From: Rhizobium jaguaris
GTDB taxonomy: Bacteria; Pseudomonadota; Alphaproteobacteria; Rhizobiales; Rhizobiaceae
Direction of reading: 5' to 3'
NCBI RefSeq assembly: GCF_003627755.1
Contig: NZ_CP032695.1
Location: 372,001-436,000 of the forward strand
DNA length: 64,000 nucleotides
Shown here: positions 1 to 19,328 of the stretch, one piece after another
How the letters are laid out: each line of letters starts with the position of its first letter
How positions within the stretch are numbered: the first letter of the stretch is position 1
Made by a program: the position numbers and the translations under genes
The notes under the pieces: generated by a model
Database searches by the model: none
The model's input: only the letters and a program-made list of their open reading frames with translations
What the model was told of the DNA's origin: nothing

Positions 1-808
1 GGCAATGGGAGTTCTTCTCATTGGTGATGTAGACGCGGCCGCCGGGTTTGCAGATGCGATAGAGCTCCCGCAGGATCAGTTCCGGCCGGTCGAAGACCTG
101 CAAGGAATGACGGCAGGTGACGAAATCGAATTGACCTTCGTCGAGCAGCATCTCGGATGCGTCGCCATAGATATATTCGATGCCCTGTATGCCGAAATCG
201 GCAGCGACCTTGCGGGCGTAGGCAAGGCTTGATTTCGAATGGTCGAGCGCGACAAGCCGAGCCGGCTGGAATTCCTTATGCAGCAACACCGCGAAATCAC
301 CGATGCCGCAGCAGATATCGGCGATCGTCAGCCCCTCGCGCATGCCATGCTGCGGCAGGATCGCCTTTTCGTGCTGCCAGGTCATTTTCGTCTGCGTCCG
401 CAGGACGGGAATGAACCCGCCCTCTTCCAGGAAGGTCTGTCCCGGATAGAACGCGCTGTCGTATTGCTCGATGACGATATTGGGACTGATTTCGCGGAGC
501 GCGCTGAACTTACGGGTGGACCAGCCCACGACGCTCGAGGTGATGACGGAAATTTTCAGATCCGGCCTTTCCGCGCAGGCCTTCACCAGAAGGTTCGCCA
601 GCACATGGAAGGCAAGATTGTTGAGGCGGACGAGGCGCTTGACGTTGACGTAGACTGTACCCTTGACCTTGGCGATCGAGGTTTCCATCAAGCGAATGCA
701 GGAATCGAGTTCCTCGACATATTGCGGACGCATCGAGCCGATGATCGAGAACTCCTGATTGTTCTCGTCGAAACGGACCTTGTATGTGCTGCTTGCTGCT
801 TCGGACAT
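1..808 (-). CDS. STAS-like (slr1659-type) domain fused to SAM-dependent methyltransferase, partial at left edge
   Basis: A continuous minus-strand frame from ATG at 808 runs off the window after 269 residues, so the C-terminus is missing. Residues 9-115 resemble the slr1659 family of STAS-like regulators, including the motif GWSTRKFSALREISPN. Residues 135-269 form a class I methyltransferase: motif I is IADICCGIGD, followed by ALDHSKSSLAYARK, an acidic loop YGDASEML and the post-motif CKPGGRVYI. The start overlaps the stop of the upstream gene (TGATG), so the two are probably translationally coupled. The target of methylation cannot be told; a small molecule or a protein are both possible. 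The domain fusion is read directly from the frame; the regulatory role is inference. Confidence 0.8.
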   Translation of the reverse strand, partial: MSEAASSTYKVRFDENNQEFSIIGSMRPQYVEELDSCIRLMETSIAKVKGTVYVNVKRLVRLNNLAFHVLANLLVKACAERPDLKISVITSSVVGWSTRKFSALREISPNIVIEQYDSAFYPGQTFLEEGGFIPVLRTQTKMTWQHEKAILPQHGMREGLTIADICCGIGDFAVLLHKEFQPARLVALDHSKSSLAYARKVAADFGIQGIEYIYGDASEMLLDEGQFDFVTCRHSLQVFDRPELILRELYRICKPGGRVYITNEKNSHC

Positions 809-1335
809 CAATTTACCGCATCTTCCAGCGCCAGCTCGGCGATCAATTTGATGGTGTCGCTGCCGTCGGTTTCGACGGAAATATCGGCCGAATAATCGAC
901 GGCGAGTTCGAACAGGCCGATGCGGGTATCGACCACATCCGATGAAAAGAGCATCTCTCTGTATTTCTCCGTCGCGTCCGGCCCCCTCGCGAGCTCGACG
1001 GTGTCGCGATAGAAGCCCGCCTGGCCGCGGCTGCAGGGAAGGATAAGTTCGACGCGATCGACCGCGCCATTTCGACGCACGGAGCAGCTGAATTTTCCCG
1101 ATCCCTCGTGTGTGCGAAAGATAGTCTCGAGAAGTTCGTTCAGAGCGGAGGAGAAAAGGTTGGAATAGAGCAGCGAGTCGGTGCGGTTGTGGCTGATCAT
1201 GCGCGCCACATAGGAGGAAAGACGATCGCAATGGCTCCAATTCGAACCGAATACGTCAATCTCCATATCGACTTCGATGAGCGATTGAAATTTGGCGGTG
1301 GAAGACGTGTCGTGCGGAAAGGCTGCTATATTCAT
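808..1335 (-). CDS. slr1658-like regulatory protein
   Basis: A 175-residue soluble protein without signal peptide or membrane segment. The segment around residues 50-75 (SNLFSSALNELLETIFR) resembles the helix that carries the N-box in degenerate GHKL ATPases and is typical of the slr1658 family, whose members sit beside slr1659-type STAS proteins. Here the next gene encodes just such a STAS domain, fused to a methyltransferase, which supports the assignment. By analogy with SiaB/RsbW it may bind or phosphorylate the STAS partner, but a complete ATP-binding site (N, G1, G2 boxes) is not evident. Family call is from memory of sequence patterns and should be taken as moderate. Confidence 0.6.
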   Translation of the reverse strand: MNIAAFPHDTSSTAKFQSLIEVDMEIDVFGSNWSHCDRLSSYVARMISHNRTDSLLYSNLFSSALNELLETIFRTHEGSGKFSCSVRRNGAVDRVELILPCSRGQAGFYRDTVELARGPDATEKYREMLFSSDVVDTRIGLFELAVDYSADISVETDGSDTIKLIAELALEDAVN

Positions 1336-1470
1336 TATCCAAAACCAGGATTGAAAAATATGCCAGAAAGTCCTGAAAAAGCGGGAGCAAGTATATTAGG
1401 AATCTAGTAATTGCCGTGTCGAAGACATACGGCAGATCTTTTCTCTGATGGCTAAACTATAGACGGCGGT

Positions 1471-1508
1471 TGACAGTATTATGTCACATGGCGTGTTTAT
1501 TATGACAC
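1471..1508. promoter_or_regulatory. Paired dyads in the divergent promoter region
   Basis: The gap between the divergent genes starting at 1335 (minus) and 1542 (plus) holds TGACA-N6-TGTCA (1471-1486) and GTGT-N8-ACAC (1493-1508). A TTGACA at 1470-1475 overlaps the first dyad and could be a -35 box for the phosphatase gene, though no good -10 is found at 16-18 bases. Possible operator; weak evidence. Confidence 0.3.
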
Positions 1509-1541
1509 CTCGAAACCACCTTTTGGCCCGTTCAATCCGCT

Positions 1542-2489
1542 ATGCAAGATAACCAGGCTTCTACCAGCACGATCGATGACGAACGCCCCCTCGCAACCGC
1601 CGGCAGCGGGGACGCCATGGCGCGGCTGCTTGCGGAAGTTGAGGCGCTTCGTGCCGAGAATAAGGACCTCAAGTTGCTCTACGAGGCGACGATCGAGCAC
1701 GGCGAAGCGGTGGAGGATCAGCTTGCCGAGAGCAACATGCTGCTTCAGCGCGTCCAGGCGCGCCTGGAAGAAGAATTGAACGATGCGCTGCGTTATGTCC
1801 TGTCGCTGTTGCCACAGCCGCGGCAAAGCGGCCCGCGCGCCGACTGGATGCTCGTTCCTTCGACGGAGCTTGGCGGCGATTCCTTTGGATATCACGATAT
1901 CGATGCGGATCATTTTGCCATTTATCTGCTCGATGTCTGCGGTCACGGTGTCGGCGCCGCGCTCTTGTCCGCATCCGTCATCAATGTCCTGAGAGCCTCG
2001 GCTCTTCCCAATGCCGATTTTCGCGATCCGTCGGCGGTGCTTGCCGGTTTGAACGCGGCCTTTCCGATGGAAAAGCAGAACAATATGTTCTTCACCATCT
2101 GGTACGGCGTGTATCAGCGATCGACCGGACAGCTTGTCTTTTCAAGCGGCGGGCATCCGCCTGCGATCCTGCTCCATGAAATGCCGGATGGTTCCGTCAG
2201 CACCGATCTCCTAATCGGCAGCGGCGGCATGGCGATCGGCGCGATCGCCGATCTGGACTATGATGCATCGACCGTCCTCGTGCAGCCGGGCGACCGTCTG
2301 CTGGTGCTGAGCGACGGGACTTATGAAATCGGGACCGACGGCAGTGAACCTCTAACCTTCCAGGATATTCTCGATTTTACGCGGAAGCCGGGTGGTGATG
2401 AGCCGGCGGCCGTTCTCGCCTGGGCGCGTGCGATCAACGGAAGCGAAACGCTTCCCGACGATTTTTCGTTTCTGCGCGTCGAGTTCTAG
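1542..2489 (+). CDS. SpoIIE/RsbU-type PP2C protein phosphatase
   Basis: A 315-residue protein with an N-terminal coiled coil (about residues 28-85) and a PPM/SpoIIE phosphatase domain (about 95-315). Metal-binding aspartates are visible in GGDSFGYHD (Asp113) and LLDVCGHG (Asp131), with SSGGHPPAIL and LSDGTYE later in the fold and a closing DDFSFLRVEF. Such enzymes dephosphorylate STAS anti-sigma antagonists and so free them to bind their kinase. A STAS protein and an RsbW-like ATPase are encoded just downstream on the other strand, which fits a partner-switching circuit. There is no sensor or membrane domain, only the coiled coil, so the input is probably a protein contact. No clear Shine-Dalgarno precedes the ATG at 1542. 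Confidence 0.85.
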   Translation: MQDNQASTSTIDDERPLATAGSGDAMARLLAEVEALRAENKDLKLLYEATIEHGEAVEDQLAESNMLLQRVQARLEEELNDALRYVLSLLPQPRQSGPRADWMLVPSTELGGDSFGYHDIDADHFAIYLLDVCGHGVGAALLSASVINVLRASALPNADFRDPSAVLAGLNAAFPMEKQNNMFFTIWYGVYQRSTGQLVFSSGGHPPAILLHEMPDGSVSTDLLIGSGGMAIGAIADLDYDASTVLVQPGDRLLVLSDGTYEIGTDGSEPLTFQDILDFTRKPGGDEPAAVLAWARAINGSETLPDDFSFLRVEF

Positions 2490-2561
2490 GGGAATTCCCG
2501 GAGAAGCGGCCAGCGATCTTCCCGTCCGAAATTGCAGAAAAATAAAGAAATTGAGCCTTAC

Positions 2562-2990
2562 CTACAAGGGCAGCACCAGTTCGGTGATGTTGGCGGAGCC
2601 TTCCCTTCGGCTCTCTACGGACCGTGCGAATTCATGGACGAGGAACAGTCCAAGGCCGCCGATCTCCATGCTTTCAATATCCGCGTCGGAAGACGGTGCT
2701 TTCGGCGGCTGCGTTAGGTCGAAGGCTGCCGCGTGGTCTCGTATCGTCAGCCGGACGTCCGCCCCTAGTCGCTCCGCCGTTATGACGATGAGGTCGCCGA
2801 CGCCGTCCTGGTAGCCGTAACGGACGAGATTGGTGAACAATTCTTCCGTGACCAGGAACAGGCGATTCTTTATATCGTCTGATAGACCGTTGCTGTCGAC
2901 GAAGGATTCGAGACCACGGTAGATCTCCGTCAGCTGCTCCAACCTATTGTCGACGGATATTTCGCAGATCATGCGTGTCATCGATGTCAC
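2562..2990 (-). CDS. RsbW/SpoIIAB-like serine kinase (HATPase_c)
   Basis: A 142-residue single-domain GHKL ATPase. The N-box is VTEELFTNLVRYGY (Glu and Asn present) and the G2 glycine motif is GGLGLFLV near the C-terminus. The G1 box reads IRDHAAAFD, where kinases usually have D-D/H-G-x-P-F, so the glycine is replaced; other RsbW-like proteins tolerate this. It follows the STAS gene in the same direction with 25 bases between them, so the two probably form one operon. It is expected to bind and phosphorylate that STAS protein. Whether it also binds a sigma factor is unknown, since no sigma gene is in the window. Start 2990 was chosen over in-frame ATGs at 2981 and 2972 only by length. Confidence 0.8.
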   Translation of the reverse strand: MTSMTRMICEISVDNRLEQLTEIYRGLESFVDSNGLSDDIKNRLFLVTEELFTNLVRYGYQDGVGDLIVITAERLGADVRLTIRDHAAAFDLTQPPKAPSSDADIESMEIGGLGLFLVHEFARSVESRREGSANITELVLPL

Positions 2991-3015
2991 GTGTTCCGAC
3001 GTACCTCTTGCCCGC

Positions 3016-3384
3016 CTAGTTCGGTTGCTCGTCGCTCACGGCGGCTTCGGAGATGTCCGCAAGGGCTGTAGCTTTGCTGTCCGCAACGGAGATGATCCGC
3101 AGGAAGCCGGAGACGCGGAGAACCTCGAGCACCGACGTATTGGGTGAAAACAATATGAATTTTCTGCCATAGGGCGCCATCTGTTTGGCGATAATGAGCA
3201 GTGAACGCAGGCCGAAACTGCTGACATAGTCTATTGCCTGCATGTCGACGAGAAGCGGGCCGCTGCCCGTCTCGACATGCGCCCTCAGATGCGTCTCGAA
3301 GGATTTGGCCGTCAATGTGTCGAGCTTTCCCGACGCATGGACGATCGTCGCGCCGTTCTCGAAAGAATCCGCCAGCTCAAGCAT
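3016..3384 (-). CDS. STAS-domain anti-sigma factor antagonist (RsbV/SpoIIAA-like)
   Basis: A 122-residue STAS protein. The phosphoacceptor region reads MQAIDYVSSFGLRSLL, with serines where SpoIIAA and RsbV are phosphorylated. GGGAAGG lies 8-13 bases before the ATG at 3384. It is the first gene of a two-gene minus-strand operon with the RsbW-like ATPase, and it lies head to head with tssA (3586), so its promoter region is shared with the T6SS cluster. Expected role: unphosphorylated form binds the RsbW-like kinase; the SpoIIE-type phosphatase at 1542 restores that form. Confidence 0.85.
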   Translation of the reverse strand: MLELADSFENGATIVHASGKLDTLTAKSFETHLRAHVETGSGPLLVDMQAIDYVSSFGLRSLLIIAKQMAPYGRKFILFSPNTSVLEVLRVSGFLRIISVADSKATALADISEAAVSDEQPN

Positions 3385-3585: not shown

Positions 3586-5280
3586 ATGACGGACATCGAT
3601 CTTGCTCTTCTTCTCGATGATTCTCGCGCCGACATCGGCGCTCTTCCGATCGAGCCGACGCCCTCCGGCGAGGATCTGCGCGGCGAACCGGAATTCGAAA
3701 TTCTGGAAACGGAATTCCGCAAGATCGAAACGGGCGGTCCGACTGCGGTCGACTGGAAGCTTTTGAACGGAAAGACGCTGGAAATTCTGCAGGGCCGTTC
3801 GAAGGATCTCGTCCTGGCCTCCCGGCTCGTCTACGGACTGTATCGCGAGGAAGGCTATCGCGGCATGGCGGTCGGGATCAGCATCTTGCGCGGTATGGTG
3901 GCGGATCATTGGGAGGGCATGTTTCCTCCGCTCAGCCGCGAACGCGGAAGGGCAGGGACGCTCGATTGGATGGCGGAAAAGCTGGCGACCACCGTCGAAA
4001 GTGAGCCGCCCGCCGAAGACAGGAAGGTTTTTGCTCTGGTTGCATATGACCGCCTTGTCGAGCTCGACACGCTTCTTTCAGAAAAACTGAAGAAATATCC
4101 AGTGGCGATGGGACCGCTCGTGCGCGCCCTGCGTCCGCATAGCCGGGAGGCGCGGCAGTCCATCGAAGCCCAGGCTGCGCGCGAAGCCGAGGCGGAAAGG
4201 GCTGCGGCTGAGCCGCCTTCCGTCGCTGCACCCGTTGATGCGCCGCAACCCTCCACCCCAGCCGAAACGCCGCCTCCGGCGCCGGCGGTGGCTGTTGCGC
4301 CCCCACCACCGTCCCGGCCGTCGCCCGCTTCTTCCGCCGCCGTGGTCGCCATGCCGGCCGTGCCAGAGATAGGTGTCGGCGAAGGCGCGGAAAAAGCATT
4401 GCAAACGCTCTTCAGCACCGCTGCGCGCATCGCGACCGCGGTTCGGCAGGAGGCGCCGGCCGATGCCCGCGTCTATCTCAGCGCTCGCCTTGCCATCTGG
4501 GGTGAGATCGACCGACTCCCGCCCGAGAGAGCCGGAAAGACGGCGTTGCCGCCGCCGCAGCCGAACCGGCTTGCCGAAATCAAGGCCTTGCAAGCTGCCG
4601 GAAACCACCAGGATTTGCTGATGTCGGCCGAGAGCGCATTCTTTTCGTCGCCCTTCTGGCTCGATGCGCAATATATGATCGCGCAATCGATGCAGGCGCT
4701 TGGCGCCCAATATGATCAGGCGCGCGTCGCGGTCATCGGCGAACTTGCGCTGTTCTTGAAGAGAGTGCCGGGTCTCCCGCAGCTCTCGTTCAGCGACGGC
4801 ACGCCATTTGCCAGCGCCGAAACCATCGCCTGGATTGCCGGGGAGGTCGAGGCCGGCGACGGTGCGAGTGCATCGGGTTCCGACATTGATATCGCGAAGG
4901 CAGAGGCCACCAAGCTCGCACAGCAGGGCCAGATCCTTCTGGGCCTGAAGCTTCTGGCAGATTTTGCGCAAGGGCGGCATGGCGAGCGCGACCGCTTCCT
5001 TGCCCGGCTCGAAGTCGGCGAATATTGCCTGCGTTTCGATCTGCTGCAGCCTCTTCTAGCGCTTGTGGTTAAGCTTGAAACCGTCGCCGAAAAGAGCGGC
5101 CTTGCGCATTGGGAACCGCAATTGGCGGCAGCACTCGCCAATTTGTCCTGGCGAGCGCTCGACCACAAGAATGCGAAACGCTTCTTCGATGAGGGCGAGT
5201 TGCTGGAAAGGAAGAGCGCGATCGTCTCGACACTCGCAGGCCTCGATATGGTCATGGCGGCACGTTTTTCATTGCCGTGA
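3586..5280 (+). CDS. tssA: Type VI secretion protein TssA (ImpA)
   Basis: 564 residues. The N-terminal ImpA domain (about 1-160) has the family features PSGEDLR and DHWEGMFPP. A proline/alanine-rich linker follows (about 190-270), then a C-terminal helical domain. TssA proteins cap or prime the growing sheath and contact the baseplate. ATG 3586 is preferred over an upstream TTG at 3514 because GGAG lies 9 bases before it and the homologous protein begins with MTDIDLALLL. It is the first gene of the T6SS cluster; 160 bases separate it from tssB, so tssB may have its own promoter. Confidence 0.92.
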   Translation: MTDIDLALLLDDSRADIGALPIEPTPSGEDLRGEPEFEILETEFRKIETGGPTAVDWKLLNGKTLEILQGRSKDLVLASRLVYGLYREEGYRGMAVGISILRGMVADHWEGMFPPLSRERGRAGTLDWMAEKLATTVESEPPAEDRKVFALVAYDRLVELDTLLSEKLKKYPVAMGPLVRALRPHSREARQSIEAQAAREAEAERAAAEPPSVAAPVDAPQPSTPAETPPPAPAVAVAPPPPSRPSPASSAAVVAMPAVPEIGVGEGAEKALQTLFSTAARIATAVRQEAPADARVYLSARLAIWGEIDRLPPERAGKTALPPPQPNRLAEIKALQAAGNHQDLLMSAESAFFSSPFWLDAQYMIAQSMQALGAQYDQARVAVIGELALFLKRVPGLPQLSFSDGTPFASAETIAWIAGEVEAGDGASASGSDIDIAKAEATKLAQQGQILLGLKLLADFAQGRHGERDRFLARLEVGEYCLRFDLLQPLLALVVKLETVAEKSGLAHWEPQLAAALANLSWRALDHKNAKRFFDEGELLERKSAIVSTLAGLDMVMAARFSLP

Positions 5281-5410
5281 CAAAAGCGTTGTAAAACTGA
5301 CATTTCAATCAGTCATTATCCCCAAGGCCTCATTTCGGGCTACGCAATACGCACTATACTGACCGGCAAGCTTCGGCGCCCCGGCATCTATACTTAATGT
5401 TTGTTTTCAT

Positions 5411-5428
5411 ATGCCTCGAGACAGGCAT
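5411..5428. promoter_or_regulatory. Short dyad in tssB leader
   Basis: ATGCCT-N6-AGGCAT lies 16 bases before the tssB start, in the 160-base gap after tssA. A TATACT box occurs near 5354. The dyad may be an operator or an RNA hairpin in the tssB leader. Weak evidence. Confidence 0.25.
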
Positions 5429-5444
5429 GGATTGGGATTAGGTG

Positions 5445-5957
5445 ATGGCGAACGAATCGTCTGTTGCGCCGAAAGAGCGCGTCAATATCCGCTACAAACC
5501 AGCCACCGGCGATGCGAAGGAAGAAGTCGAACTTCCGCTGAAGATGGTATTCCTCGCAGACTATACGATGCGCGCCGATGACACGCCGGTCGAAGATCGT
5601 TCCTTGATCAATGTGAACAAGGAAAACTTCAACGAGGTCATGAAGAGCCACAATCTGTCGCTCGATATGTCCGTCGACAACAAGCTCGTGGACGAGAGCA
5701 GCGAAGAAGGCCAGATGACCGTCTCGCTGAAATTCGACAACCTTAACGATTTCACGCCGGAAGCGATCGCCCGCCAAACGCCGGAACTCAAGAAGCTTCT
5801 TGAGCTGCGTGAAGCACTGGTTGCGCTGAAGGGTCCGCTCGGCAACGTCCCAGCCTTCCGCAAGGCGATCCAGGGCGTGCTCGGAGACGACGACGCCCGC
5901 GAAAAGCTTCTCGCGGAACTGATTGCCCATACTGAATCCTCCAAAAAAGATCAGTGA
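5445..5957 (+). CDS. tssB: T6SS contractile sheath small subunit TssB (ImpB)
   Basis: 170 residues, the usual length. The N-terminus contains KERVNIRYKP and the C-terminal helix region contains TPELKKLLELREAL, both typical of TssB/VipA. TssB pairs with TssC to build the contractile sheath in the cytoplasm. A GTG at 5442 is directly before the ATG at 5445; the ATG is preferred, with GGGA 7 bases upstream. The gene is followed by tssC after 86 bases. Confidence 0.95.
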   Translation: MANESSVAPKERVNIRYKPATGDAKEEVELPLKMVFLADYTMRADDTPVEDRSLINVNKENFNEVMKSHNLSLDMSVDNKLVDESSEEGQMTVSLKFDNLNDFTPEAIARQTPELKKLLELREALVALKGPLGNVPAFRKAIQGVLGDDDAREKLLAELIAHTESSKKDQ

Positions 5958-6043
5958 ACGGATCTCCGCTGTGCCGGGCCCGGCCTGTGGAGTTCGAGGA
6001 CTGAACTCACGTTTTTGATGACGACCGAATAAAGGCTCACACG

Positions 6044-7528
6044 ATGTCTGAGAGAGAGACGGCGCAGCAAGTCGAGACCACCTACCAGGAAGCGGAGGGA
6101 TCCCTCCTCGACCAGATCCTGCAGGAAACCAAGCTTTCCCCGAGCGACGATGGCTATGATATCGCCAAGAAGGGTGTCAGCGCCTTCATCGCCGAACTGC
6201 TGAAGCCGACGCGTGCCGACAGCACCGTCAACAGCGCCGCGATCGACCAGATGATCGCCGAAATCGACATGAAACTGTCGGCCCAGGTCGACGAAGTCCT
6301 CCACAATAAGGACTTCATGACGCTGGAATCGACCTGGCGCAGCCTCCGCTTCGCTGTCGACCGCACCGATTTCCGCCAGAACATCAAGATCGAGATCATG
6401 AACGTCTCGAAGGCCGATCTGCTGACCGACTTCGAGGACAGCCCGGAAGTGGCGAAGTCCGGCCTCTACAAGCATATCTACACTGCGGAATACGGCCAAT
6501 TCGGTGGCCAGCCGGTCGGTGCCGTCGTCTGCGACTATGCCTTCGGCCCCGGCGCCCAGGATGTGAAGCTCGCTCAATATTGCGCCAGTGTCGGTGCCAT
6601 GTCGCACGCGCCCTTCATCGCCGGCGCCGCACCGTCGATGTTCGGCGTCGACAGCTTCGAAGAGATCCCGAACCTCAAGGATATGGAATCGATTTTCGAA
6701 GGCCCAAAATACGCCAAATGGAATGGCTTCCGCGAATCCGAAGACGCCCGCTACTTCGGCCTGGCAATGCCGCGTTTCCTTCTGCGCACGCCCTACGGTT
6801 CGGAAACGGTTCCGGTCAAGGCCTTCAATTATGAAGAGCGTGCCGAGGGCCGCACCGAGAATTACCTCTGGGGCAATGCCGCGATCGCCCTTGTCACCCG
6901 CATGACCGATAGCTTTGCCAACTATCGCTGGTGCCCGAATATCATCGGCCCGCAGTCCGGTGGTGCCGTCGAGGACCTGCCGGTCCACACCTTTGAGGCA
7001 ATGGGCCAGCTTCAGAGCAAGATTCCGACGGAAGTGTTGATTTCCGACCGCAAGGAATATGAACTGGCCGAGCAGGGCTTCATCTCGCTCACCATGCGCA
7101 AGGGCAGCGACAATGCCGCCTTCTTCTCGGCAAATTCGGTGCAGAAGCCGAAATTCTTCGGCAACTCCGCCGAGGGCAAGAATGCCGAACTGAACTACCG
7201 GCTCGGCACGCAGCTTCCCTACATGATGATCGTCAATCGCCTGGCGCATTACATCAAGGTGCTCCAGCGCGAAAATATCGGTAGCTGGAAGAACCGCGGC
7301 GAACTCGAAAACGAGCTCAACAACTGGATCCGCCAGTATGTGTCGGACCAGGACAATCCGTCGGCCGACGTCCGTTCGCGCCGTCCGCTTCGTAAGGCGC
7401 AGATTACCGTTTCGGATGTCGATGGCGAACCGGGCTGGTACAGCGTCGGCATGTCCGTTCAGCCGCATTTCAAATATATGGGCGCGGATTTCACCCTCTC
7501 CCTGAAGGGTAAGCTGGACAAGGCCTGA
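6044..7528 (+). CDS. tssC: T6SS contractile sheath large subunit TssC (ImpC)
   Basis: 494 residues, typical for TssC/VipB. Family signatures are WRSLRFAVDRTDFR in the N-terminal third, the central GAAPSMFG, and the highly conserved NIIGPQSGGAVEDLPVH. It assembles with TssB into the sheath. The next gene is tssE with a 79-base gap; no hcp gene or second tssC-like gene lies between them, unlike many imp clusters. A 597-codon antisense frame covers this gene but is a codon-bias shadow. Confidence 0.96.
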   Translation: MSERETAQQVETTYQEAEGSLLDQILQETKLSPSDDGYDIAKKGVSAFIAELLKPTRADSTVNSAAIDQMIAEIDMKLSAQVDEVLHNKDFMTLESTWRSLRFAVDRTDFRQNIKIEIMNVSKADLLTDFEDSPEVAKSGLYKHIYTAEYGQFGGQPVGAVVCDYAFGPGAQDVKLAQYCASVGAMSHAPFIAGAAPSMFGVDSFEEIPNLKDMESIFEGPKYAKWNGFRESEDARYFGLAMPRFLLRTPYGSETVPVKAFNYEERAEGRTENYLWGNAAIALVTRMTDSFANYRWCPNIIGPQSGGAVEDLPVHTFEAMGQLQSKIPTEVLISDRKEYELAEQGFISLTMRKGSDNAAFFSANSVQKPKFFGNSAEGKNAELNYRLGTQLPYMMIVNRLAHYIKVLQRENIGSWKNRGELENELNNWIRQYVSDQDNPSADVRSRRPLRKAQITVSDVDGEPGWYSVGMSVQPHFKYMGADFTLSLKGKLDKA

Positions 7529-7607
7529 AGCGCGCTTTGAGTGCCGCCGCCGGCCCTGAAACGAGGCAATCTTGCCCGCTGGAGCCGGCGTCGGAAGGGA
7601 GTTGGGA

Positions 7608-8021
7608 ATGGTATCGGTTAGTTTGTTGCAACGTCTTGAGCGTGATGATGTCGTTGGCGGATCAGGTTCTACCGTCAACGACGACACTGCAATCATGAAC
7701 AGCGTGCTCAGCAACCTGCGGTCTCTCCTAAACAGTCGCCGCAATTGCTGTGAGACCCGTCCCGATTACGGCTTGCAGGATTTCAACGCGACAGAGGACT
7801 ACCGCAGTTCGATCCCGCTGATTGCCAGGGATGTCGAACGACAGATCAGGCTGTTCGAGCCGCGTATCCGCAACGTCATCGTCCGGGCGGTCGAGGACAA
7901 GACCCAGCTGTCCCAGCTGATCTTCCACATCAACGGCGAACTCGCTCACGGCGACCGCACCGTGCGAATTTCCTTCGATTCCGTCCTCGGCAGCGACGGC
8001 TATATGCGTCTCAACGGATAG
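7608..8021 (+). CDS. tssE: T6SS baseplate protein TssE (gp25-like, ImpF)
   Basis: 137 residues with a gp25-like fold: a variable N-terminus, then TRPDYGLQDFN and the conserved region SIPLIARDVERQIRLFEPRI. TssE is the baseplate wedge protein homologous to phage T4 gp25. The ATG at 7608 is chosen because GGGAGTTGGGA stands directly before it; an in-frame TTG at 7572 would add 12 residues with no homology. Thirteen bases separate it from tssF. Confidence 0.92.
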   Translation: MVSVSLLQRLERDDVVGGSGSTVNDDTAIMNSVLSNLRSLLNSRRNCCETRPDYGLQDFNATEDYRSSIPLIARDVERQIRLFEPRIRNVIVRAVEDKTQLSQLIFHINGELAHGDRTVRISFDSVLGSDGYMRLNG

Positions 8022-8034
8022 AAGGTCGAACCGA

Positions 8035-9783
8035 GTGTCCGTCAACAGCTATTACCGAGACGAGCTTTCCTACTTGCGGGAAATGGGCAGCCTGTTTGCC
8101 AAGGCCAATCCGCGCCTATCAGCCTATCTCGCCAAGGAGGCATCCGATCCGGACGTCGAGCGGCTTCTGGAAGGCTTCTCCTTCCTGGTCGGGCGGCTCC
8201 GTCAGAGGCTCGATGCGGAAATGCCGGAGCTGGCGCTGACGCTGCTGCAGCTCGTCTGGCCGCACTATCTGCGCCCGGTGCCGCCGATCACCACCGTCCA
8301 GTTCCGTTTTGCCGAAGGGGCAAGTGGCGCCTCGATGAAAGTGCCGCGCGGCACGCAGGTTCAAACGAACCCCCTGGGTGGCGAAGCGGTGGTTTTCAGC
8401 ACAAGCTACGATCTTTCGGTGCTGCCGCTCGACATTACGGGGGTCGATCTCGACAACCGCAAGAACACCGCAAGGTTGACCCTCAATTTCGAGCGCATCG
8501 CAGGCAATGGCCTGCAGGCGCTTGCCGAGGCGCCGTTGACGATCTTCTTCAACAGCCATCGCGACGCCGCGGTTGCCCGCCAGCTCTACCTCTTTTTCAT
8601 AGAAAAGGTGCAGCGCGTGTATTTCACGCCGAAGGGCGGCGAGGCGGTTGTCGTGCCCGTCAGGATAGAGCCGCTCGGCTTTTCCGCCGATGAAGCGACG
8701 CTTCCCTATCCGCAGGGCTCGTTCGACGGCTTCCGCATCATGCAGGAATATTTCTCCTGTCCGGAAAAGTTCATGTATGCCCGCCTGCACGGCCTCGAAA
8801 GGTTTGCCGGCCAGCAGACCGACGGCTTCAGCCTTTCCTTCGACATGGCGCAGCGCTTTCCGGAGGCATCGCGGCTGACTGCGGATCAGTTCGCTCTCAA
8901 CACGTCGCCTGCCGTCAATCTTTTTTCGGTCGAGGGGCAGGCGCTCATGATCTCGCACGACCGTTCGGAATATCCGGTCCGGGCGACGGGTGGTTTCGAA
9001 AAGCGCAGCGTCCATGCGGTGGAATCCGTGGTCGGCTGGGTGCAGGGGAGCGGCAAGCGGATCGATTACGAAGCCTTTGAAAGCTTTCGGCATGATCCCG
9101 CCAATGAGGGGACGGCCAAGCTCTATTACCGAACGCAGGTACGTCCGGCCATTCTCGGAAACGGCGTCGACCACTACCTTTCCTTCGTCACCCGTCTCGA
9201 CGAGATCGGCCGGCCGGAGACGGAGACGGTGTCGATGAAGCTTCTATGCTCCAACGGTCCGCTGGCCCTCCAGCACGGCATCGGCTCGGTCAATCAGCCG
9301 ACCTCGTCGACGCCGCCGAAGCTCGATTTCTCGAACATCACGCCGATCCTTGGTGAAGTGCCGCCGCCGCTCGAAGACAATATCCTCTGGACGCTGATTG
9401 CCAATCTGGCCCGCAATTTCGCATCGCTGATCGATGTCGAGGCGTTGCGCACGGTGGTCGGCGCCTATGATTTTCGCGCCAATGCCGACAAGCAGGCCGC
9501 GCAGCAGCGCGATCTCCTTCTGCAGAGTTTTCGCCGTTTCGAGCGGCGTGGCATCGATATCATGCGCGGTGGCCGGCCGAGCCGGGCTTATGAGCTGGCG
9601 CTGACGGTCTCCGAGAGCCAAATGGGCGGCGAAGGGGAAATGTATCTCTTCGGCACGATCCTGGATCAATTCCTGAAATCCTACGCCAGCATCAACAGCT
9701 TGCACCGTTTCTCGGTGCGAGGGCTGGATACGAACACGACATATAAGTGGACTCCCAAATGGGGAGAGGCAGCGACGCTATGA
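8035..9783 (+). CDS. tssF: T6SS baseplate protein TssF (ImpG)
   Basis: 582 residues, normal length. The N-terminal signature YYRDELSYLREMGSLFAK and the motif DPDVERLLEGFSFLVGRL are diagnostic of TssF/VasA. TssF forms the baseplate wedge with TssG, TssE and TssK. The start codon is GTG. The stop overlaps the tssG start (ATGA), so translation is coupled. Confidence 0.95.
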   Translation: MSVNSYYRDELSYLREMGSLFAKANPRLSAYLAKEASDPDVERLLEGFSFLVGRLRQRLDAEMPELALTLLQLVWPHYLRPVPPITTVQFRFAEGASGASMKVPRGTQVQTNPLGGEAVVFSTSYDLSVLPLDITGVDLDNRKNTARLTLNFERIAGNGLQALAEAPLTIFFNSHRDAAVARQLYLFFIEKVQRVYFTPKGGEAVVVPVRIEPLGFSADEATLPYPQGSFDGFRIMQEYFSCPEKFMYARLHGLERFAGQQTDGFSLSFDMAQRFPEASRLTADQFALNTSPAVNLFSVEGQALMISHDRSEYPVRATGGFEKRSVHAVESVVGWVQGSGKRIDYEAFESFRHDPANEGTAKLYYRTQVRPAILGNGVDHYLSFVTRLDEIGRPETETVSMKLLCSNGPLALQHGIGSVNQPTSSTPPKLDFSNITPILGEVPPPLEDNILWTLIANLARNFASLIDVEALRTVVGAYDFRANADKQAAQQRDLLLQSFRRFERRGIDIMRGGRPSRAYELALTVSESQMGGEGEMYLFGTILDQFLKSYASINSLHRFSVRGLDTNTTYKWTPKWGEAATL

Positions 9784-10925
9784 CCCCGGATGGTGGCACG
9801 GTTATCGCCGCGGCATCGGCGGAAGAACGGATCGATGCACGCAAGGCCCGCGCCGATCGGCTGGCTGGCTTGCGTCATTTCCGCTTCCACCAACTTATCA
9901 CGCTGATCGAGATGCAGCGGCAGGGCGCCCGCCCGATCGGCGCGCTCGGCGATCCCGCTGAGGAGTATATCCGCTTCCGCGCGACGCGATCCCTGAGCTT
10001 CGGCCCCGGCGATCTTTCCGCTGTCGACTATGGTGACGACGGCGAGCGTCTCGATATCCGGGTCAATTTCTTCGGCCTTTACGGTCCTGCGTCGCCACTG
10101 CCGCCATCTTTCACGGAACGGATCATCGAGGAAGATCGGGCCCAGGCCTCCGTCGAGGATCTGCTCGATCTTTTCAATCATCGCCTTATTTCGCTGCTTC
10201 ACGTCATCTGGCGGAAGTACCGCTATTATCTTCGCTACGAAACCGGCGGATCGGACGCTTTATCCAAGCGGTTCCTGGCGCTTTGCGGTTTTCCGATCGA
10301 GGATAGGGATCGTATCGGCCAGATCTCACGTTCGGCGCTGCTGCCGCATGTCGGTCTTCTGTCGCTCTATTCCAATTCCGCGGATGTCGTATCCGCAACG
10401 CTCTCCAATTTCTTCAGGATACCCTGCCGCATCGAGGAATTCATCGACCGGCATGTCGTCATGGATACGGATTCGCAGTTCCAGCTTGGCGTGGCGAACA
10501 ATCTGCTCGGCGAGGATACGATCATCGGCGGCGAGATCGACGATGATCTCGGGAAATTCCGGGTCTGTTTGGGCCGGTCGCCGTTTTCGGCTATTGCGCC
10601 CTTTCTTCCGGGAGGAAACCGCCATCGGCAGCTCTCGGAACTGCTGTCCATGGTCAACCGTGAGCCGCTCGATTGGGACATGCAGTTCGAGTTCGAGCCT
10701 GAGACCGTCCCGATAGGATGCTTGGGAGAGATGAAGCTCGGCTGGTCCGGGTGGCTCTATGCCCATGATGCGGATCATCTGGAGAGTACCGTGCGGCTCG
10801 CTGTCCTTGAGGCGGATAGCGATGCAGACCCGGACGACGAGGACTTTGGTGACGATGCGGGGTACCACCCCATGCCTGCCGCCGGGGACTCGCAGCGTTT
10901 CAGGGAGGCGAGAGCGGGGCAATGA
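9780..10925 (+). CDS. tssG: T6SS baseplate protein TssG (ImpH)
   Basis: 381 residues. Family features include FRFHQLITLIEMQ near the N-terminus, FFGLYGPASPLP (about residues 98-109) and LFNHRLISLLH. The C-terminal 30 residues are acidic and variable. It partners with TssF in the baseplate wedge. The start at 9780 overlaps the tssF stop by four bases and the stop overlaps the fha start at 10922 by four bases. Confidence 0.94.
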   Translation: MTPDGGTVIAAASAEERIDARKARADRLAGLRHFRFHQLITLIEMQRQGARPIGALGDPAEEYIRFRATRSLSFGPGDLSAVDYGDDGERLDIRVNFFGLYGPASPLPPSFTERIIEEDRAQASVEDLLDLFNHRLISLLHVIWRKYRYYLRYETGGSDALSKRFLALCGFPIEDRDRIGQISRSALLPHVGLLSLYSNSADVVSATLSNFFRIPCRIEEFIDRHVVMDTDSQFQLGVANNLLGEDTIIGGEIDDDLGKFRVCLGRSPFSAIAPFLPGGNRHRQLSELLSMVNREPLDWDMQFEFEPETVPIGCLGEMKLGWSGWLYAHDADHLESTVRLAVLEADSDADPDDEDFGDDAGYHPMPAAGDSQRFREARAGQ

Positions 10926-12976
10926 AGGTTCGCTTGTCTCTCGTCGATGCGTCGGAGCAGACCGAGCACACATTCGGGCCGGATGGCGGCATCTTTGGCC
11001 GATCTGCCAAATGCGATTGGGTGCTGCCGGATCCGGAGCATATTCTTTCTTCCGTTCATGGCCGGATACAGTTTTCGAACGGCCGCTACCTGCTGATCGA
11101 TGAGAGCACCAACGGTATCGTGCTCGACGGCCGGCAGGACCCGCTCGGCCGTGGCAATTCCATTGTCCTGCAGGACAAGTTGCGATTCCGCGCCGCAAAA
11201 TACCTGATCGAAGCGCAGATGGTTCGCGAGGCCGATCAAGGTCTGCCCGTCCTTCAGGCATCCGGCTTGCAGCAGTCCGCGCCGTCCCCTTGGCCCGATG
11301 CGCCGGTACCGCTGGCCGGGAAACGGCGTGTCGAGCCGGTCTTGCGCAATGACGGTCTGTTCGACGGAGCCGCGGGACGCAACTCGCAGGATCCGCTTGC
11401 TTACCTCGACACGCCGGCTCCGATGGATATTGCCGGCCCTCGTGTCGCCTCCCATCCCGCACCGGGATTTCCCGCTCAGAATGCGCGACAGGGTGGCTAT
11501 CACGCCGGTTTCGGCGGCACGCCGGCGGTTGCGTCGCCGGTCTTACCCGCTGCCGACGGAAGCCTCGACGATCTCTTTGCCGCTGCGCCCGGTCCGCGTG
11601 GCATCGGTCCAAGCGTCGAGCTGCCGATATCGGCAGCTCAGGTCCAGGCATTTGCCGTACCGCCGCTCGCGCCCACTCTGGCGCAGCCGGTAGCACTGCC
11701 GCCCGCCGCAATCCCTCAGCCGGCACCCGAACCGCCGCCGGTCGCTACCCGGTCTATCCCCGAGGATTTTCTTGCGTCCTTCGGCGCAAGTAGGCAAAGC
11801 GGCTTGTCGACCGTTCCCGCGCTGTCACCGGCCAATCCTGATTCGTCCGCTCGTCCTTCTTCCGCCGCGCCTCCGGCTCAACCGGCGACAAAGCTTATTC
11901 CGGATGATTTCGATCCGCTGACCGCCTTCGGCCCGCCGCGCACATTCGTCCCGCAGGCGGTTCCTGCAGAAGTGCCCGTGCGTATCTCCGTACCGTCGGC
12001 GCCTTTGCCGCCGGTTGCCGCCGCCCGCCCACCCGAGCCGCTGAGCCCGGCTCTGCTTGCGGATTTCGTGAAAGTCGAGACTCCTGCCGCAGCGACACGC
12101 GCCGGAAATGGGAATGTAGCTGGAGAGCCTTTCGATCCGCTTGAGGCGATGAAGAGCCGCCGCGAGGAGCGCAAGGCGGCATTGCTCGAAAAGGCGAAGG
12201 GGAACGGCAATGCCGGTCCGCCTATTCCGCCTCCGCCGTCTGCCGCGGCTGTGCCCGCCGTGTCTGCGACCGCCCTACCGGATCTGCCCAAATCGCCGCC
12301 CATGCCCGCTGGTTCGGAGCTGCCGCCCGAGAGTATTCCCGTTATCGCGAATCCCGGCGCAGCAGCAGCAGACTTGACGATCATCGCAGCGCTTTTCACA
12401 GGCATGGGCTTCCCGGCCGAGCGCGTGACGGCGGAGCGGGGGAGCACGATTGCCAAGGAAGCCGGTGAAGTGGTGCGCGAAACGGCCGAGGGCCTGATTG
12501 CGCTTCTTGCGGCGCGGCGTCTGCTGAAGACTGAATTCCGGATGGACGAGACCCAGGTGCAGCCGGAGGAAAACAATGCGCTCAAGCATTTCAAGATCGC
12601 CGAACTGGCGCTCGACGAACTGTTTCTGACCAAGGGTGGCGGGTTCCAGCCACCGGCCGAATCTGTCGCCTCCGCTTTCGCCGATCTGCAGCAGCATGCC
12701 GTACTGACGATGTCGGCCATGCAGCGCGCCATCAATCTTCTCTTCCGCCGGCTTTCGCCCGACGTCATCGCCCGTGATGCGGAGGATGAGGGCGGTCTGC
12801 GCATCCGCGGTCTCGGCGCCCGCAAGGGAAAATGGGAAACCTATGTCGAAAGCCATGCCCGAATGAGCGGCAATATCGACGGGGTCGCCCGTCAGATCAT
12901 CGCCGAGGCGTTTGCACAGGTTCAGGAAGAGCAGGCACGAAAGGCGGCATCCGCCTATTGGGAGAAAAAGCAGTGA
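10922..12976 (+). CDS. tagH: T6SS forkhead-associated protein Fha (TagH/ImpI)
   Basis: 684 residues in three parts. Residues 1-95 are an FHA phosphothreonine-binding domain with GRSAKCDW, SSVHGRI and DESTNGIVLDG. Residues about 110-480 are a long proline/alanine-rich disordered linker. Residues about 490-684 are the TagH C-terminal domain (LFRRLSPDVI, GKWETYVESHARM). In threonine-phosphorylation controlled T6SSs, PpkA phosphorylation is read by Fha to trigger assembly and PppA reverses it; both enzymes are encoded at the end of this cluster. The stop overlaps the tssJ start. Confidence 0.93.
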   Translation: MKVRLSLVDASEQTEHTFGPDGGIFGRSAKCDWVLPDPEHILSSVHGRIQFSNGRYLLIDESTNGIVLDGRQDPLGRGNSIVLQDKLRFRAAKYLIEAQMVREADQGLPVLQASGLQQSAPSPWPDAPVPLAGKRRVEPVLRNDGLFDGAAGRNSQDPLAYLDTPAPMDIAGPRVASHPAPGFPAQNARQGGYHAGFGGTPAVASPVLPAADGSLDDLFAAAPGPRGIGPSVELPISAAQVQAFAVPPLAPTLAQPVALPPAAIPQPAPEPPPVATRSIPEDFLASFGASRQSGLSTVPALSPANPDSSARPSSAAPPAQPATKLIPDDFDPLTAFGPPRTFVPQAVPAEVPVRISVPSAPLPPVAAARPPEPLSPALLADFVKVETPAAATRAGNGNVAGEPFDPLEAMKSRREERKAALLEKAKGNGNAGPPIPPPPSAAAVPAVSATALPDLPKSPPMPAGSELPPESIPVIANPGAAAADLTIIAALFTGMGFPAERVTAERGSTIAKEAGEVVRETAEGLIALLAARRLLKTEFRMDETQVQPEENNALKHFKIAELALDELFLTKGGGFQPPAESVASAFADLQQHAVLTMSAMQRAINLLFRRLSPDVIARDAEDEGGLRIRGLGARKGKWETYVESHARMSGNIDGVARQIIAEAFAQVQEEQARKAASAYWEKKQ

Positions 12977-13452
12977 CAGTGACGAGACGTGCCGTTTTCG
13001 AGGGATTGGGTGCGAGCGCCATTCTGGCGCTCACCGGGTGCGGCCATACGCCCGATCCGACGCCCACATCCATCGTCCTGAATGCCGATCCCGGCATCAA
13101 CCCGGGCGAGACCGGCGCGGCATCTCCCGTCGTCGTCAGGATTTATGAGCTGAAGGGCATCAAGGCGTTCAACAACGCCAATTTCTTCGATTTCGACAAG
13201 GATACGCAGATCCTCGGCGCCGATCTCATCGCCAGTCGCGAATACGAGATGACCCCGGGTAGCCAGCAGAAATACCAGAAGGAGATTTCGAGCGAAGCGG
13301 CCTATATCGGCGTTGTCGCCTCCTTCCGCAACATCCAGTCGGCGACCTGGCGCGATTCGATCGAGCTGCACAAGGGTTCGAAGAATAGGCTGGTCGTCTA
13401 TCTCACCAGCGCTGCGGTCCGGATCCAGAAGGCAAGCGGCTGGTTCGGCTGA
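12973..13452 (+). CDS. tssJ: T6SS outer-membrane lipoprotein TssJ with Tat-like signal
   Basis: 159 residues with a GTG start overlapping the fha stop; a second GTG at 12979 is also possible. The lipobox is LTGC (cysteine at about residue 22). Before it lies TRRAVFEGLGASAILAL: two arginines followed by a hydrophobic stretch, which looks like a twin-arginine signal rather than a plain Sec signal. The mature part has the TssJ transthyretin-like pattern, with VVRIYELKGIKAFNNANFFD. TssJ anchors the TssL-TssM complex to the outer membrane. The call rests on position (between fha and tssK), lipobox and pattern. Confidence 0.88.
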   Translation: MTVTRRAVFEGLGASAILALTGCGHTPDPTPTSIVLNADPGINPGETGAASPVVVRIYELKGIKAFNNANFFDFDKDTQILGADLIASREYEMTPGSQQKYQKEISSEAAYIGVVASFRNIQSATWRDSIELHKGSKNRLVVYLTSAAVRIQKASGWFG

Positions 13453-13497
13453 TGGGCAGAGAGTTTATGAGGAGTAGGTCCTCGGAGGGAACGATTG

Positions 13498-14835
13498 GTG
13501 TCGACGGGTAAGCCATTGTGGCTGGAGGGCATGTTTCTTCGCCCACAGCATCTGCAGCAATATGACCGCTGGATCGAAGACAGCCTCGAACAGCGCGTGG
13601 CGGCGTTGCTGCCGCATTCCTGGGGTCTGCGCAGCCTCCAGCTCGATCCCAATGCGCTTAAGAATGGCCAGGTAAGGGTCATCTCGGTCGAGATGATCTT
13701 TCCAGATGGGACGGTCTATGCCGCGCCCGCAGCGCAGCCTTTGCCGCCCGCGCGGCATCTGACCACCGATTTTCAGGGCAAGCGGTTGTTCATGGCCGCG
13801 CCGTTGCGGGCACCCGGCGGCATTGATGTCGCCGACAACGACAATCCTACACACCGCTTCCGACGGGTCGCAACCGAGCTTCGCGATAGCGCCAAGGCGG
13901 ATCGTCCGCCAGCTGATATCTATCTCGCCGCCTTAAACGCGCGCCTGGTTATCGAAGGCGAGTCCCTGGACGAGCTTGTCTATATTCCGATCGCCGAAAT
14001 AGACGCCGTCGATGCGCAGGGCCAGGTGACGTTGTCGGAAACCTTCATTCCGCCCGCGCTCGTCGCCAGCGCCAGTGTGCGGCTCGTCTCGTTGATGGAG
14101 CAGATCCGCGGCCTCCTGAAAAGCCGTTCCGATGCCCTGGCCTCGGGCGCTGCAGGCGAAGACGGTGGCACACGGTCTGGCACGATCGACCTCATTACGC
14201 TTGGCATCGTCAACCGCTATCAGGCAGTCTTCGATCACATGATCGCATCGGCCGCGCACACGCCGGAGATCGTCTACCGCGAATGTATCGCCCTTGCCGG
14301 CGAGCTTTCGGCCTTTGCCGCGACCGGACGCAAGCTGCCGGATCTCGGCCGCTATAATCATCGCGACCTGAGGGCAAGCTTTGAAAACCTGATGCCGATC
14401 CTGCGCAACCTGCTCAGCGTCATCGTCGAGCGCAATGCCGTCAGCATCCCGCTGACCGAGAGGGATTACGGCATCTGGCTCGGCGAGATCAAGGACCGTG
14501 TGACCTTTGCTGGCCGACGCTTCGTGCTGATCGCACGGGCAAACATTGCGCTCGAGACTATCCGCGTGCAGATGCCGATCCAGGTCAAGATCGGTCCGGT
14601 CGAGCAAATCCACGATCTCGTCAATCTGCAATTGCCCGGCATCGGCGTGCAGCCGCTGTCGGTCGCGCCGCGCGAGATTCCCTTCATTCAGAACGCCGTC
14701 TATTTCGAGCTCGACGACGGCAATCCGCTCTGGAGCCGCTTTCGGGATTCGGCCGCCTTCGCGCTGCATGTCAGCGGCGAATATCCGGGGCTCAAGCTTG
14801 AACTCTGGGCGATCCAGAAGGGAACGGCCCAATGA
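13498..14835 (+). CDS. tssK: T6SS baseplate adaptor TssK (ImpJ)
   Basis: 445 residues. The N-terminal signature PLWLEGMFLRPQHLQQYDRW is diagnostic. TssK links the baseplate to the TssL-TssM membrane complex. The GTG at 13498 is preferred over TTG at 13495 because GGAGGG ends 8 bases before it. The stop overlaps the tssL ATG (ATGA). Confidence 0.95.
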   Translation: MSTGKPLWLEGMFLRPQHLQQYDRWIEDSLEQRVAALLPHSWGLRSLQLDPNALKNGQVRVISVEMIFPDGTVYAAPAAQPLPPARHLTTDFQGKRLFMAAPLRAPGGIDVADNDNPTHRFRRVATELRDSAKADRPPADIYLAALNARLVIEGESLDELVYIPIAEIDAVDAQGQVTLSETFIPPALVASASVRLVSLMEQIRGLLKSRSDALASGAAGEDGGTRSGTIDLITLGIVNRYQAVFDHMIASAAHTPEIVYRECIALAGELSAFAATGRKLPDLGRYNHRDLRASFENLMPILRNLLSVIVERNAVSIPLTERDYGIWLGEIKDRVTFAGRRFVLIARANIALETIRVQMPIQVKIGPVEQIHDLVNLQLPGIGVQPLSVAPREIPFIQNAVYFELDDGNPLWSRFRDSAAFALHVSGEYPGLKLELWAIQKGTAQ

Positions 14836-15716
14836 GCAGCCTAGGCGAGGAGTCTGATCACCCGACGGTCGCCCGGCGCCTGAGCCCGCGGGCTCGCACC
14901 GCGCTCGCCGCCCAAGGCGAAGAGGACGCGCCGACCGTCGTTATCCATCGCCACACCAACCCGCCCGCCGAAACGCCCGCGACCGGGACCTCGTCGCTGC
15001 AAAGCGCTGCGGTCATCGTCCAGCAACTTGAGGCGACGCCTGAGAGAAAGCTCGTGCGCGCCGCCGCTCCGCTGCTTCTGATCGGCGCGCAATTGCGCAA
15101 CTCCGTCGATCGCGCCGATGTCGCAGCGTTGCGCCGCCAGGTCGCCGAGGAAATGGACCGGTTTCAGCAGACGGCGCAGAAGAGCGGCTGCGAGGCCGGC
15201 GACATCATCGCCGCCCGCTATGTCCTCTGCTCCATGCTCGATGAGACCGTGCTGATGACACCTTGGGGCAGTCGCAGCGAATGGAGCGCCAATAGCCTGC
15301 TGAACCAATATCACAACGAAACCTGGGGCGGCGAAAAGGTCTTTACCATCCTCGATCGCGTCAAGACCAATGGCGAGAAGAAGCTGCCATTACTGCTTCT
15401 GATCCACGCCTGCCTGATGCTCGGCTTCGAAGGACGCTACAGGGTTCTGGAGCGTGGCCGCGATCTCCTGGAGGAGTTGCGAAACGACCTCTCGCGGACG
15501 ATCCGCCGCTATTCCGAGGCTAAACCTGAAGAGCCGCTCTCCGCTGAGGGGAAGGCTGCCAAGGGCGGGCGGCGGATTCGCACTGCCATACCGCTCTGGA
15601 TGGTGGTCGTTGCGGCCTTCTGCGTGCTCATCATCGTGCATGTCTACGCGCAGTTCACGCTCTCCAACGCACTTGCGCCGGTGCTCGTTAAAATTCATGC
15701 GCTGACGGTGGGATAG
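14832..15716 (+). CDS. tssL: T6SS inner-membrane protein TssL (ImpK/DotU-like), short form
   Basis: 294 residues. A disordered N-terminus of about 60 residues is followed by the cytoplasmic DotU-like helical domain (RYVLCSMLDETVLMTPWG, LLNQYHNETWGGEKVF) and one transmembrane helix at about residues 255-275. The protein ends soon after the helix and has no C-terminal OmpA-like peptidoglycan-binding domain, so wall anchoring, if any, must come from another protein. It forms the membrane complex with TssM and TssJ. The tssM gene follows after 11 bases. Confidence 0.94.
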   Translation: MSSLGEESDHPTVARRLSPRARTALAAQGEEDAPTVVIHRHTNPPAETPATGTSSLQSAAVIVQQLEATPERKLVRAAAPLLLIGAQLRNSVDRADVAALRRQVAEEMDRFQQTAQKSGCEAGDIIAARYVLCSMLDETVLMTPWGSRSEWSANSLLNQYHNETWGGEKVFTILDRVKTNGEKKLPLLLLIHACLMLGFEGRYRVLERGRDLLEELRNDLSRTIRRYSEAKPEEPLSAEGKAAKGGRRIRTAIPLWMVVVAAFCVLIIVHVYAQFTLSNALAPVLVKIHALTVG

Positions 15717-15727
15717 GGTTTCGCGCG

Positions 15728-19315: not shown

Positions 19316-19328
19316 GCGCGGCGCGGCG

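Follow-up and report, generated by a model that had tools for sequence, protein, structure and literature searches.

A STAS-methyltransferase fusion in a partner-switch operon lodged in a type VI secretion cluster of Rhizobium jaguaris

The window analysed here is a 64,000-nucleotide stretch of the 8.03 Mb Rhizobium jaguaris genome (C2:372001-436000, C2 being contig NZ_CP032695.1), and its first bases hold part of an operon in which a STAS-methyltransferase fusion is encoded with a partner-switch gene set, beside a type VI secretion system (T6SS) cluster. The operon was cut by the window edge. The fusion gene, MT, lay on the minus strand at 1..808 and extended 367 bases past base 1, to C2:371633 (808 to -367 overall). 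The protein has 391 amino acids, with the N-terminal 269 codons inside the window, a STAS-like domain at about residues 1-120 and a class I S-adenosylmethionine (SAM) methyltransferase domain at about residues 140-391. The gene for an slr1658-like putative pseudokinase, PK (808..1335, minus strand, 175 amino acids), was coupled to MT by an overlap of one base between the PK stop and the MT ATG (TGATG). A divergent intergenic region, delimited from the gene layout (1336..1541) and presumed to hold promoters, separated PK from SP2, which encodes a SpoIIE-type PP2C phosphatase (1542..2489, plus strand, 315 amino acids; PF07228, E 1.5e-36). Next to it were genes for an RsbW-like GHKL kinase (2562..2990, minus strand, 142 amino acids; PF13581, HATPase_c_2, E 3.7e-21) and a free STAS protein (3016..3384, minus strand, 122 amino acids; PF01740, E 6.5e-18). 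The tssA gene (ImpA_N/VasJ; Met at 3586) started about 200 bases from the free STAS gene on the opposite strand. The original prediction had named the fusion, its coupled slr1658-like gene, the phosphatase, kinase and second STAS protein within 3.4 kb, and the divergent tssA, and all of these were recovered by profile search.

Beyond base 1, MT overlapped by four bases with SPO (-364 to -2742, minus strand, 792 amino acids), which encodes a dCache-HAMP-SpoIIE phosphatase, and SPO was followed on the same strand by genes for a genuine slr1658 kinase, K2 (182 amino acids), and a genuine slr1659 STAS protein, S2 (112 amino acids). After S2, outside the window, came genes for a coiled-coil protein and a ParA/MinD-like ATPase (7071-8281 of locus L004, where the window position is the L004 position minus 12000). 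On the other strand past this pair, Pfam searches identified a Ser/Thr kinase, a sigma54 activator, a ClpV-like AAA protein and Hcp. On the window side, a T6SS cluster (tssA, B, C, E, F, G, FHA, J, K, L, M, tagF, a PP2C phosphatase and a Ser/Thr kinase by Pfam) occupied 3586..21707 on the plus strand. The whole block therefore lies inside a T6SS cluster and carries two partner-switch sets.

Both halves of the fusion were confirmed. The STAS half matched the NCBIfam slr1659 model (NF047705) with 41.9 bits (E 1e-10), which is under the curated cut-off of 100 bits and places it outside the family proper. The other half matched Methyltransf_25 (E 9.5e-19) and scored as a class I SAM methyltransferase (PF13649, 68.3 bits; cut-off 27), with the SAM-site residues D164, G168, G170, D189 and D216 invariant in 41 of 41 copies. 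Those relatives of MT that bore a name were listed as 'UbiE' or 'class I SAM-dependent methyltransferase'; the former overstates the match, because the UbiE/MenG model TIGR01934 gave 63 bits against a cut-off of 158.35. Fold matches were all methyltransferases and covered that half, the fused STAS half being judged by strand/helix order only. They gave no answer on the substrate, since the best match, 3mgg, has no function attached. To look for other output domains, a search was made with the fused STAS alone, which reached proteins of 0.55-1.75 times the query length. It found 518 proteins, and a methyltransferase domain was present in all 120 matches listed. No report of a STAS-methyltransferase in a partner switch was found in the open-access literature searched.

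The operon encodes two kinase/STAS pairs. K2 was a clear slr1658 protein (NF047703, 173.8 bits; cut-off 100) and S2 a clear slr1659 protein (NF047705, 144.9 bits; cut-off 100). PK matched NF047703 with 32.8 bits (E 4.3e-8), under the curated cut-off of 100, and matched no Pfam family; on this score it is a divergent slr1658 relative and not a member. In L156, a plasmid locus of Rhizobium sp. CCGE531, the PK gene (8498-9004) is annotated 'ubiquinone biosynthesis methyltransferase UbiE'. No methyltransferase model matched the PK of the window, and the label was probably carried over from the neighbouring gene. Profile comparison indicated homology of PK to K2 (probability 95) and of the fused STAS to S2 (probability 91). 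The ten best fold matches of the predicted PK model were kinases of partner switches (SiaB, SpoIIAB, UsfX and RsbW), mostly as part of a complex, so PK is predicted to have a SiaB/SpoIIAB-like fold despite the loss of its ATP-site Asn.

Residues were then compared among the named loci, which are the best 80 of 272 confirmed relatives. We took the N-box Asn and the SGLG/GGLG loop to be the motifs of GHKL kinase competence, and the acceptor position of the STAS domains was located, on our assumption, from SpoIIAA/RsbV. The ATP-site (N-box) Asn was present in K2 in 80 of 80 cases and in PK in 0 of 82. The SGLG loop was likewise found in none of the 82 PKs, which do not qualify as competent GHKL kinases by these motifs. 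S2 carried the acceptor Ser in 80 of 80 copies, and the fusions had Asn in 79, Ala in 1 and Ser in 2 (n=82), which is not the pattern of a phosphorylatable STAS domain. Judged by profiles and residues, PK and the fused STAS are homologues of K2 and S2 without the residues for phospho-chemistry. Since 80 of 82 fusions lack the acceptor Ser and all 82 PKs lack the ATP-site Asn, phosphorylation of the fusion itself is probably not what switches it.

The gene set was strongly conserved. PK, MT and SPO were present in 80 of 80 loci and K2 and S2 in 78, both misses being contig ends, and the five-gene core PK-MT-SPO-K2-S2 was syntenic in all 78 loci whose contigs reach far enough. Among 249 genomes of the order (thresholds E <= 1e-20 for slr1658 and E <= 1e-40 for the fusion), slr1658 and the fusion occurred in the same 9 genomes, with 10 copies each and the pairs within about 4 kb. 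Within this sample the methyltransferase is no mere accessory to the module. The fusion was found in 6 of 398 genomes of the phylum sample, all of the window's family, and, within the genus, in 117 of the 148 genomes; the window's protein was 99% identical to that of Rhizobium mayense CCGE526 and 98% to that of Rhizobium sp. BK313. One locus titled Mycobacterium sp. KBS0706 (L067) had this otherwise alphaproteobacterial operon at 69% identity, and its genome label is doubtful.

The Asp residues of four PP2C motifs were retained in SP2 in 22 of 22 aligned copies (21 loci and the window's own), the N-box Asn and the GGLG loop in the RsbW-like kinase in 15 of 15 (14 loci and own), and Ser or Thr at the acceptor position of the free STAS protein in 15 of 15. 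Whole-genome SpoIIE matches numbered four, namely SP2, the SPO genes of this module and of its second copy, and, with 26 bits, the PP2C phosphatase of the T6SS; the three strong ones were all in the window's module or its second copy. The window's kinase was the sole strong RsbW-type match in the genome (75.5 bits; next 34). Two slr1658 proteins scored above the cut-off, one per module copy, and PK matched weakly. The gene set is beyond chance, because strong RsbW-type and SpoIIE matches were confined to the module copies. The second copy, at C2 about 2.187-2.192 Mb, adjoins GGDEF-EAL and EAL genes by Pfam and neighbours read by eye as MinC and MinD; no T6SS gene was seen in that stretch. The partner-switch set included no recognisable sigma factor gene.

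The original prediction had also proposed a link of the module to the T6SS, to be judged by a neighbourhood survey. The window's own proteins served as tblastn queries for T6SS genes at most 10 kb from each locus, and such genes were found in 14 of 80; contig ends cut 17 of these loci short, to less than 21 kb. A GGDEF-EAL gene lay directly upstream in 53 loci. Of the others, 11 had SP2, STAS/RsbW and the same T6SS subtype as the window, 3 had SP2 and another T6SS subtype (L009, L038 and L074), 6 had SP2 alone, 1 had SP2 with STAS/RsbW, 2 had STAS/RsbW with SP2 further off, and 4 had none of these. The second subtype was recognised by Pfam from TssG in L009 and TssF in L038, and in L074 by tblastn only. 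In the MT tree the GGDEF-EAL copies made up one side of a branch (100/98), with every T6SS-linked copy opposite. The main T6SS label needed 4 changes on this tree, at least 3 of them forced by supported branches. By clade, T6SS genes within 10 kb were found in 14/27 loci vs 0/53 in the GGDEF-EAL clade (Fisher p = 1.3e-8, which ignores relatedness), SP2 in 23/27 vs 0/53, and RsbW with STAS in 16/27 vs 0/53; GGDEF-EAL lay upstream in 0/27 vs 53/53. The T6SS link is real in one clade, and none was seen in the other. The survey thus upheld a non-random link in the T6SS-linked clade but rejected the T6SS as a general target of the module.

Some neighbourhoods had further genes of note. A Ser/Thr kinase and another methyltransferase (MethyTransf_Reg, PF10119, E 1.9e-24) were found at 14475-16798 of L038, between the module and tssG/tssF of the second T6SS subtype, with a similar gene, judged by eye, at 15488-17029 of L009. 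Two modules without a T6SS match lay near YcaO and TfuA genes (L043, 17073-19024) and near genes for a GG-leader-like peptide and an ABC transporter (L077, 6852-7478 and 17947-20805). Sigma54 sites were considered as a connection between the module and the cluster's activator and were rejected, with 6 matches of up to 2 mismatches in 20 kb vs 8.46 expected. One sigma54-like site with one mismatch stood just upstream of hcp (L004 203-218), the number of sites in the region being at chance level.

The association was also examined from the side of the T6SS. In the genus, TssC of at least 84% identity was found in 4 of 148 genomes, the next best match having 41%. In the window's genome and two others with 99% identical TssC, the module was within about 7 kb of TssC, and these three were also the genomes of the genus with a second fusion gene. 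The fusion was near TssC on the same contig in 3 of the 117 fusion-bearing genomes, positions being compared by eye. The two genes sit on separate contigs in most draft genomes, where contig breaks could conceal a few neighbouring pairs. The fourth genome, G409, had the T6SS without an adjoining module; its single module copy, of the GGDEF-EAL type, lay elsewhere. A further 14 genomes with TssC at E <= 1e-180 came from samples of the order (397 genomes) and class (385); the module adjoined TssC in 2 of these, and the remaining 12 had no fusion anywhere at E <= 1e-40. In one module-less cluster, L157, the gene order was that of the window (tssA, STAS, RsbW, coiled-coil, ParA, kinase, activator, ClpV) without SP2-PK-MT-SPO-K2-S2. 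The six missing genes thus resemble a single cassette that was either gained or lost between the RsbW gene and the coiled-coil gene. Homologues of the coiled-coil and ParA/MinD-like proteins were present in the module-less clusters of L157 and L165, so this pair seems to be part of the T6SS.

Known systems were compared with the module. Sinorhizobium meliloti 1021 has, at pSymB 458865-465606, homologues of the GGDEF-EAL-type gene, PK, MT, SPO, K2 and S2, six genes in this order, and we take SMb20447 to be bgrR. The source study of BgrRSTUWV in S. meliloti is reportedly that of Baena et al. in 2019. According to passages of PMC8457831 and PMC7647112 that cite this system, the Bgr(S,T)UWV partner switch acts on the cyclase BgrR, with R a diguanylate cyclase, U/W the phosphatase/kinase and V a STAS protein. 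We infer that the GGDEF-EAL clade is the Bgr family, with PK as BgrS and MT as BgrT, because letters, order, count and roles fit. On this assignment the T6SS-linked clade keeps the S-T-U-W-V order, but GGDEF-EAL is absent beside the T6SS copy, whereas the second copy in the same genome has it; SP2, RsbW with STAS, and T6SS genes are added at the frequencies given above. The module also differs from SiaABCD of Pseudomonas aeruginosa. SPO missed the SiaA model (NF038263, 125.3 bits vs 700), K2 the SiaB model (NF038262, 19.0 vs 85) and S2 the SiaC model (PF09345, 13.1 vs 24.5), and, unlike SiaABCD as outlined in part of PMC7647112, a methyltransferase is here fused to an acceptor-less STAS and accompanied by a second, apparently dead kinase. 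As in the SpoIIAB/SpoIIAA and RsbW/RsbV systems, which the PK fold matches recall, there is a GHKL kinase, a STAS antagonist and a SpoIIE phosphatase, but an enzyme stands in place of the sigma factor. BtrUVW of Bordetella likewise couples a partner switch to secretion, there of type III; the secretion system differs, and the portion of PMC8256260 describing Btr mentions no methyltransferase or dead pair.

An established step, given in PMC11418112, is that SpoIIE and RsbU remove the phosphate from their STAS partners and that these then bind the kinases. We tentatively favour, at a little less than an even chance, a T6SS-lodged Bgr-type (slr1658/slr1659) partner switch in which the methyltransferase is freed or re-targeted by competition for the pseudokinase; the competition step is drawn from homology and lost residues. 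A ligand at the SPO dCache domain would set SPO against K2 and so determine the phosphorylation state of S2. Autoinducer 2, a dCache ligand according to passages of PMC7584622, may be one candidate. Unphosphorylated S2 would compete with the non-phosphorylatable fused STAS for PK, so that S2, once dephosphorylated by SPO, may displace the fused STAS from PK and free or re-target the methyltransferase. Further clients would be the cyclase in one clade and SP2, RsbW/STAS and at times the T6SS in the other; in the T6SS-linked clade, which has no GGDEF-EAL gene, the connection between module and T6SS may run through SP2 and the RsbW/STAS pair. A stronger version, in which S2 titrates PK off the STAS-tethered MT, MT and not the cyclase is the common Bgr output, and in one clade methylation controls T6SS assembly, we consider quite unlikely.

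Several observations weigh against the competition reading. GLGL was found in three PKs (L043, L044 and L064), one loop Gly in 27/82, and the Glu four residues ahead of the lost Asn in 82/82, and because of these remnants nucleotide binding by PK is still conceivable. Ser stood at the acceptor position in L039 and L052, two Mesorhizobium fusions that are sisters within an Asn-bearing clade, where it is probably a secondary change. Thr stood one residue past the acceptor in 21 of 76 aligned fusions, all of the GGDEF-EAL type. The 10 kb searched around each locus yielded no T6SS gene in 66 of 80 cases, the TssC subtype lacked an adjoining module in 13 of 15 genomes (the window's and its two kin excluded), and the output named for the S. 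meliloti switch is the cyclase BgrR, again in passages of PMC8457831 and PMC7647112. Such Ser and Thr residues, with the PK/MT coupling and the slr1658/slr1659 resemblance, would suit the direct form of the originally predicted circuit, in which the fused STAS would be phosphorylated by PK and dephosphorylated by a SpoIIE protein, switching MT directly. This was rejected on the counts of acceptor, PK Asn and PK SGLG residues and is very improbable; what stands of the predicted circuit is a partner switch with a constant methyltransferase component, and not the phosphorylation of the fusion itself. MT might instead be an internal adaptation enzyme methylating a component of the switch, such as the sensor phosphatase, with outputs that vary by clade (the diguanylate cyclase, or the RsbW/STAS set and the T6SS). 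MT stays with SPO, K2 and S2 while the neighbours differ completely between clades, protein methyltransferase models such as PrmC match it, although far below cut-off (39.6 bits vs 199), and the peptide methyltransferase LahSB (6uak) is among its fold and sequence matches. However, no CheR model was among the 12 Pfam rows for MT, and the solved structures matching it are mostly small-molecule or unassigned methyltransferases. We hold this explanation to be unlikely, yet a rival to be taken seriously.

Two further explanations concern the T6SS. Its proximity could be hitch-hiking, the module regulating other things such as surface polysaccharide or cyclic di-GMP responses, as the many loci without a T6SS match, the upstream GGDEF-EAL genes, the module-less TssC genomes and the curli-like and HD-GYP genes adjoining the GGDEF-EAL-type operon of L156 would allow. 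Against this, the T6SS-linked copies are all of one clade and involve two T6SS subtypes on different sides of the module, and the tssA/STAS/RsbW/SP2/PK order is common to Rhizobium and Roseibium, though their fusions do not form one clade; we regard hitch-hiking as somewhat unlikely. Rather more doubtful is the proposal that the RsbW/STAS pair, together with SP2, is all that serves the T6SS, and that the PK-MT-SPO-K2-S2 core has a separate job. In L157, L160 and L165 this T6SS subtype does have RsbW and STAS matches next to it and no core, but RsbW, STAS and SP2 accompany the core with no T6SS match within 10 kb in L013, L016, L063, L077 and L079.

The residue patterns suggest that the methyltransferase is held by dead copies of the kinase and its target, and that competition, not phosphorylation of the enzyme itself, switches it. 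In the 249-genome sample the fusion always adjoined its kinase, and vice versa. Should MT be the output, a dead kinase/antagonist pair can give partner switches control of a methyltransferase, and a second arm would be added to a regulator known for cyclic di-GMP. How a partner switch might act on a secretion machine can be asked directly in the T6SS-linked clade.

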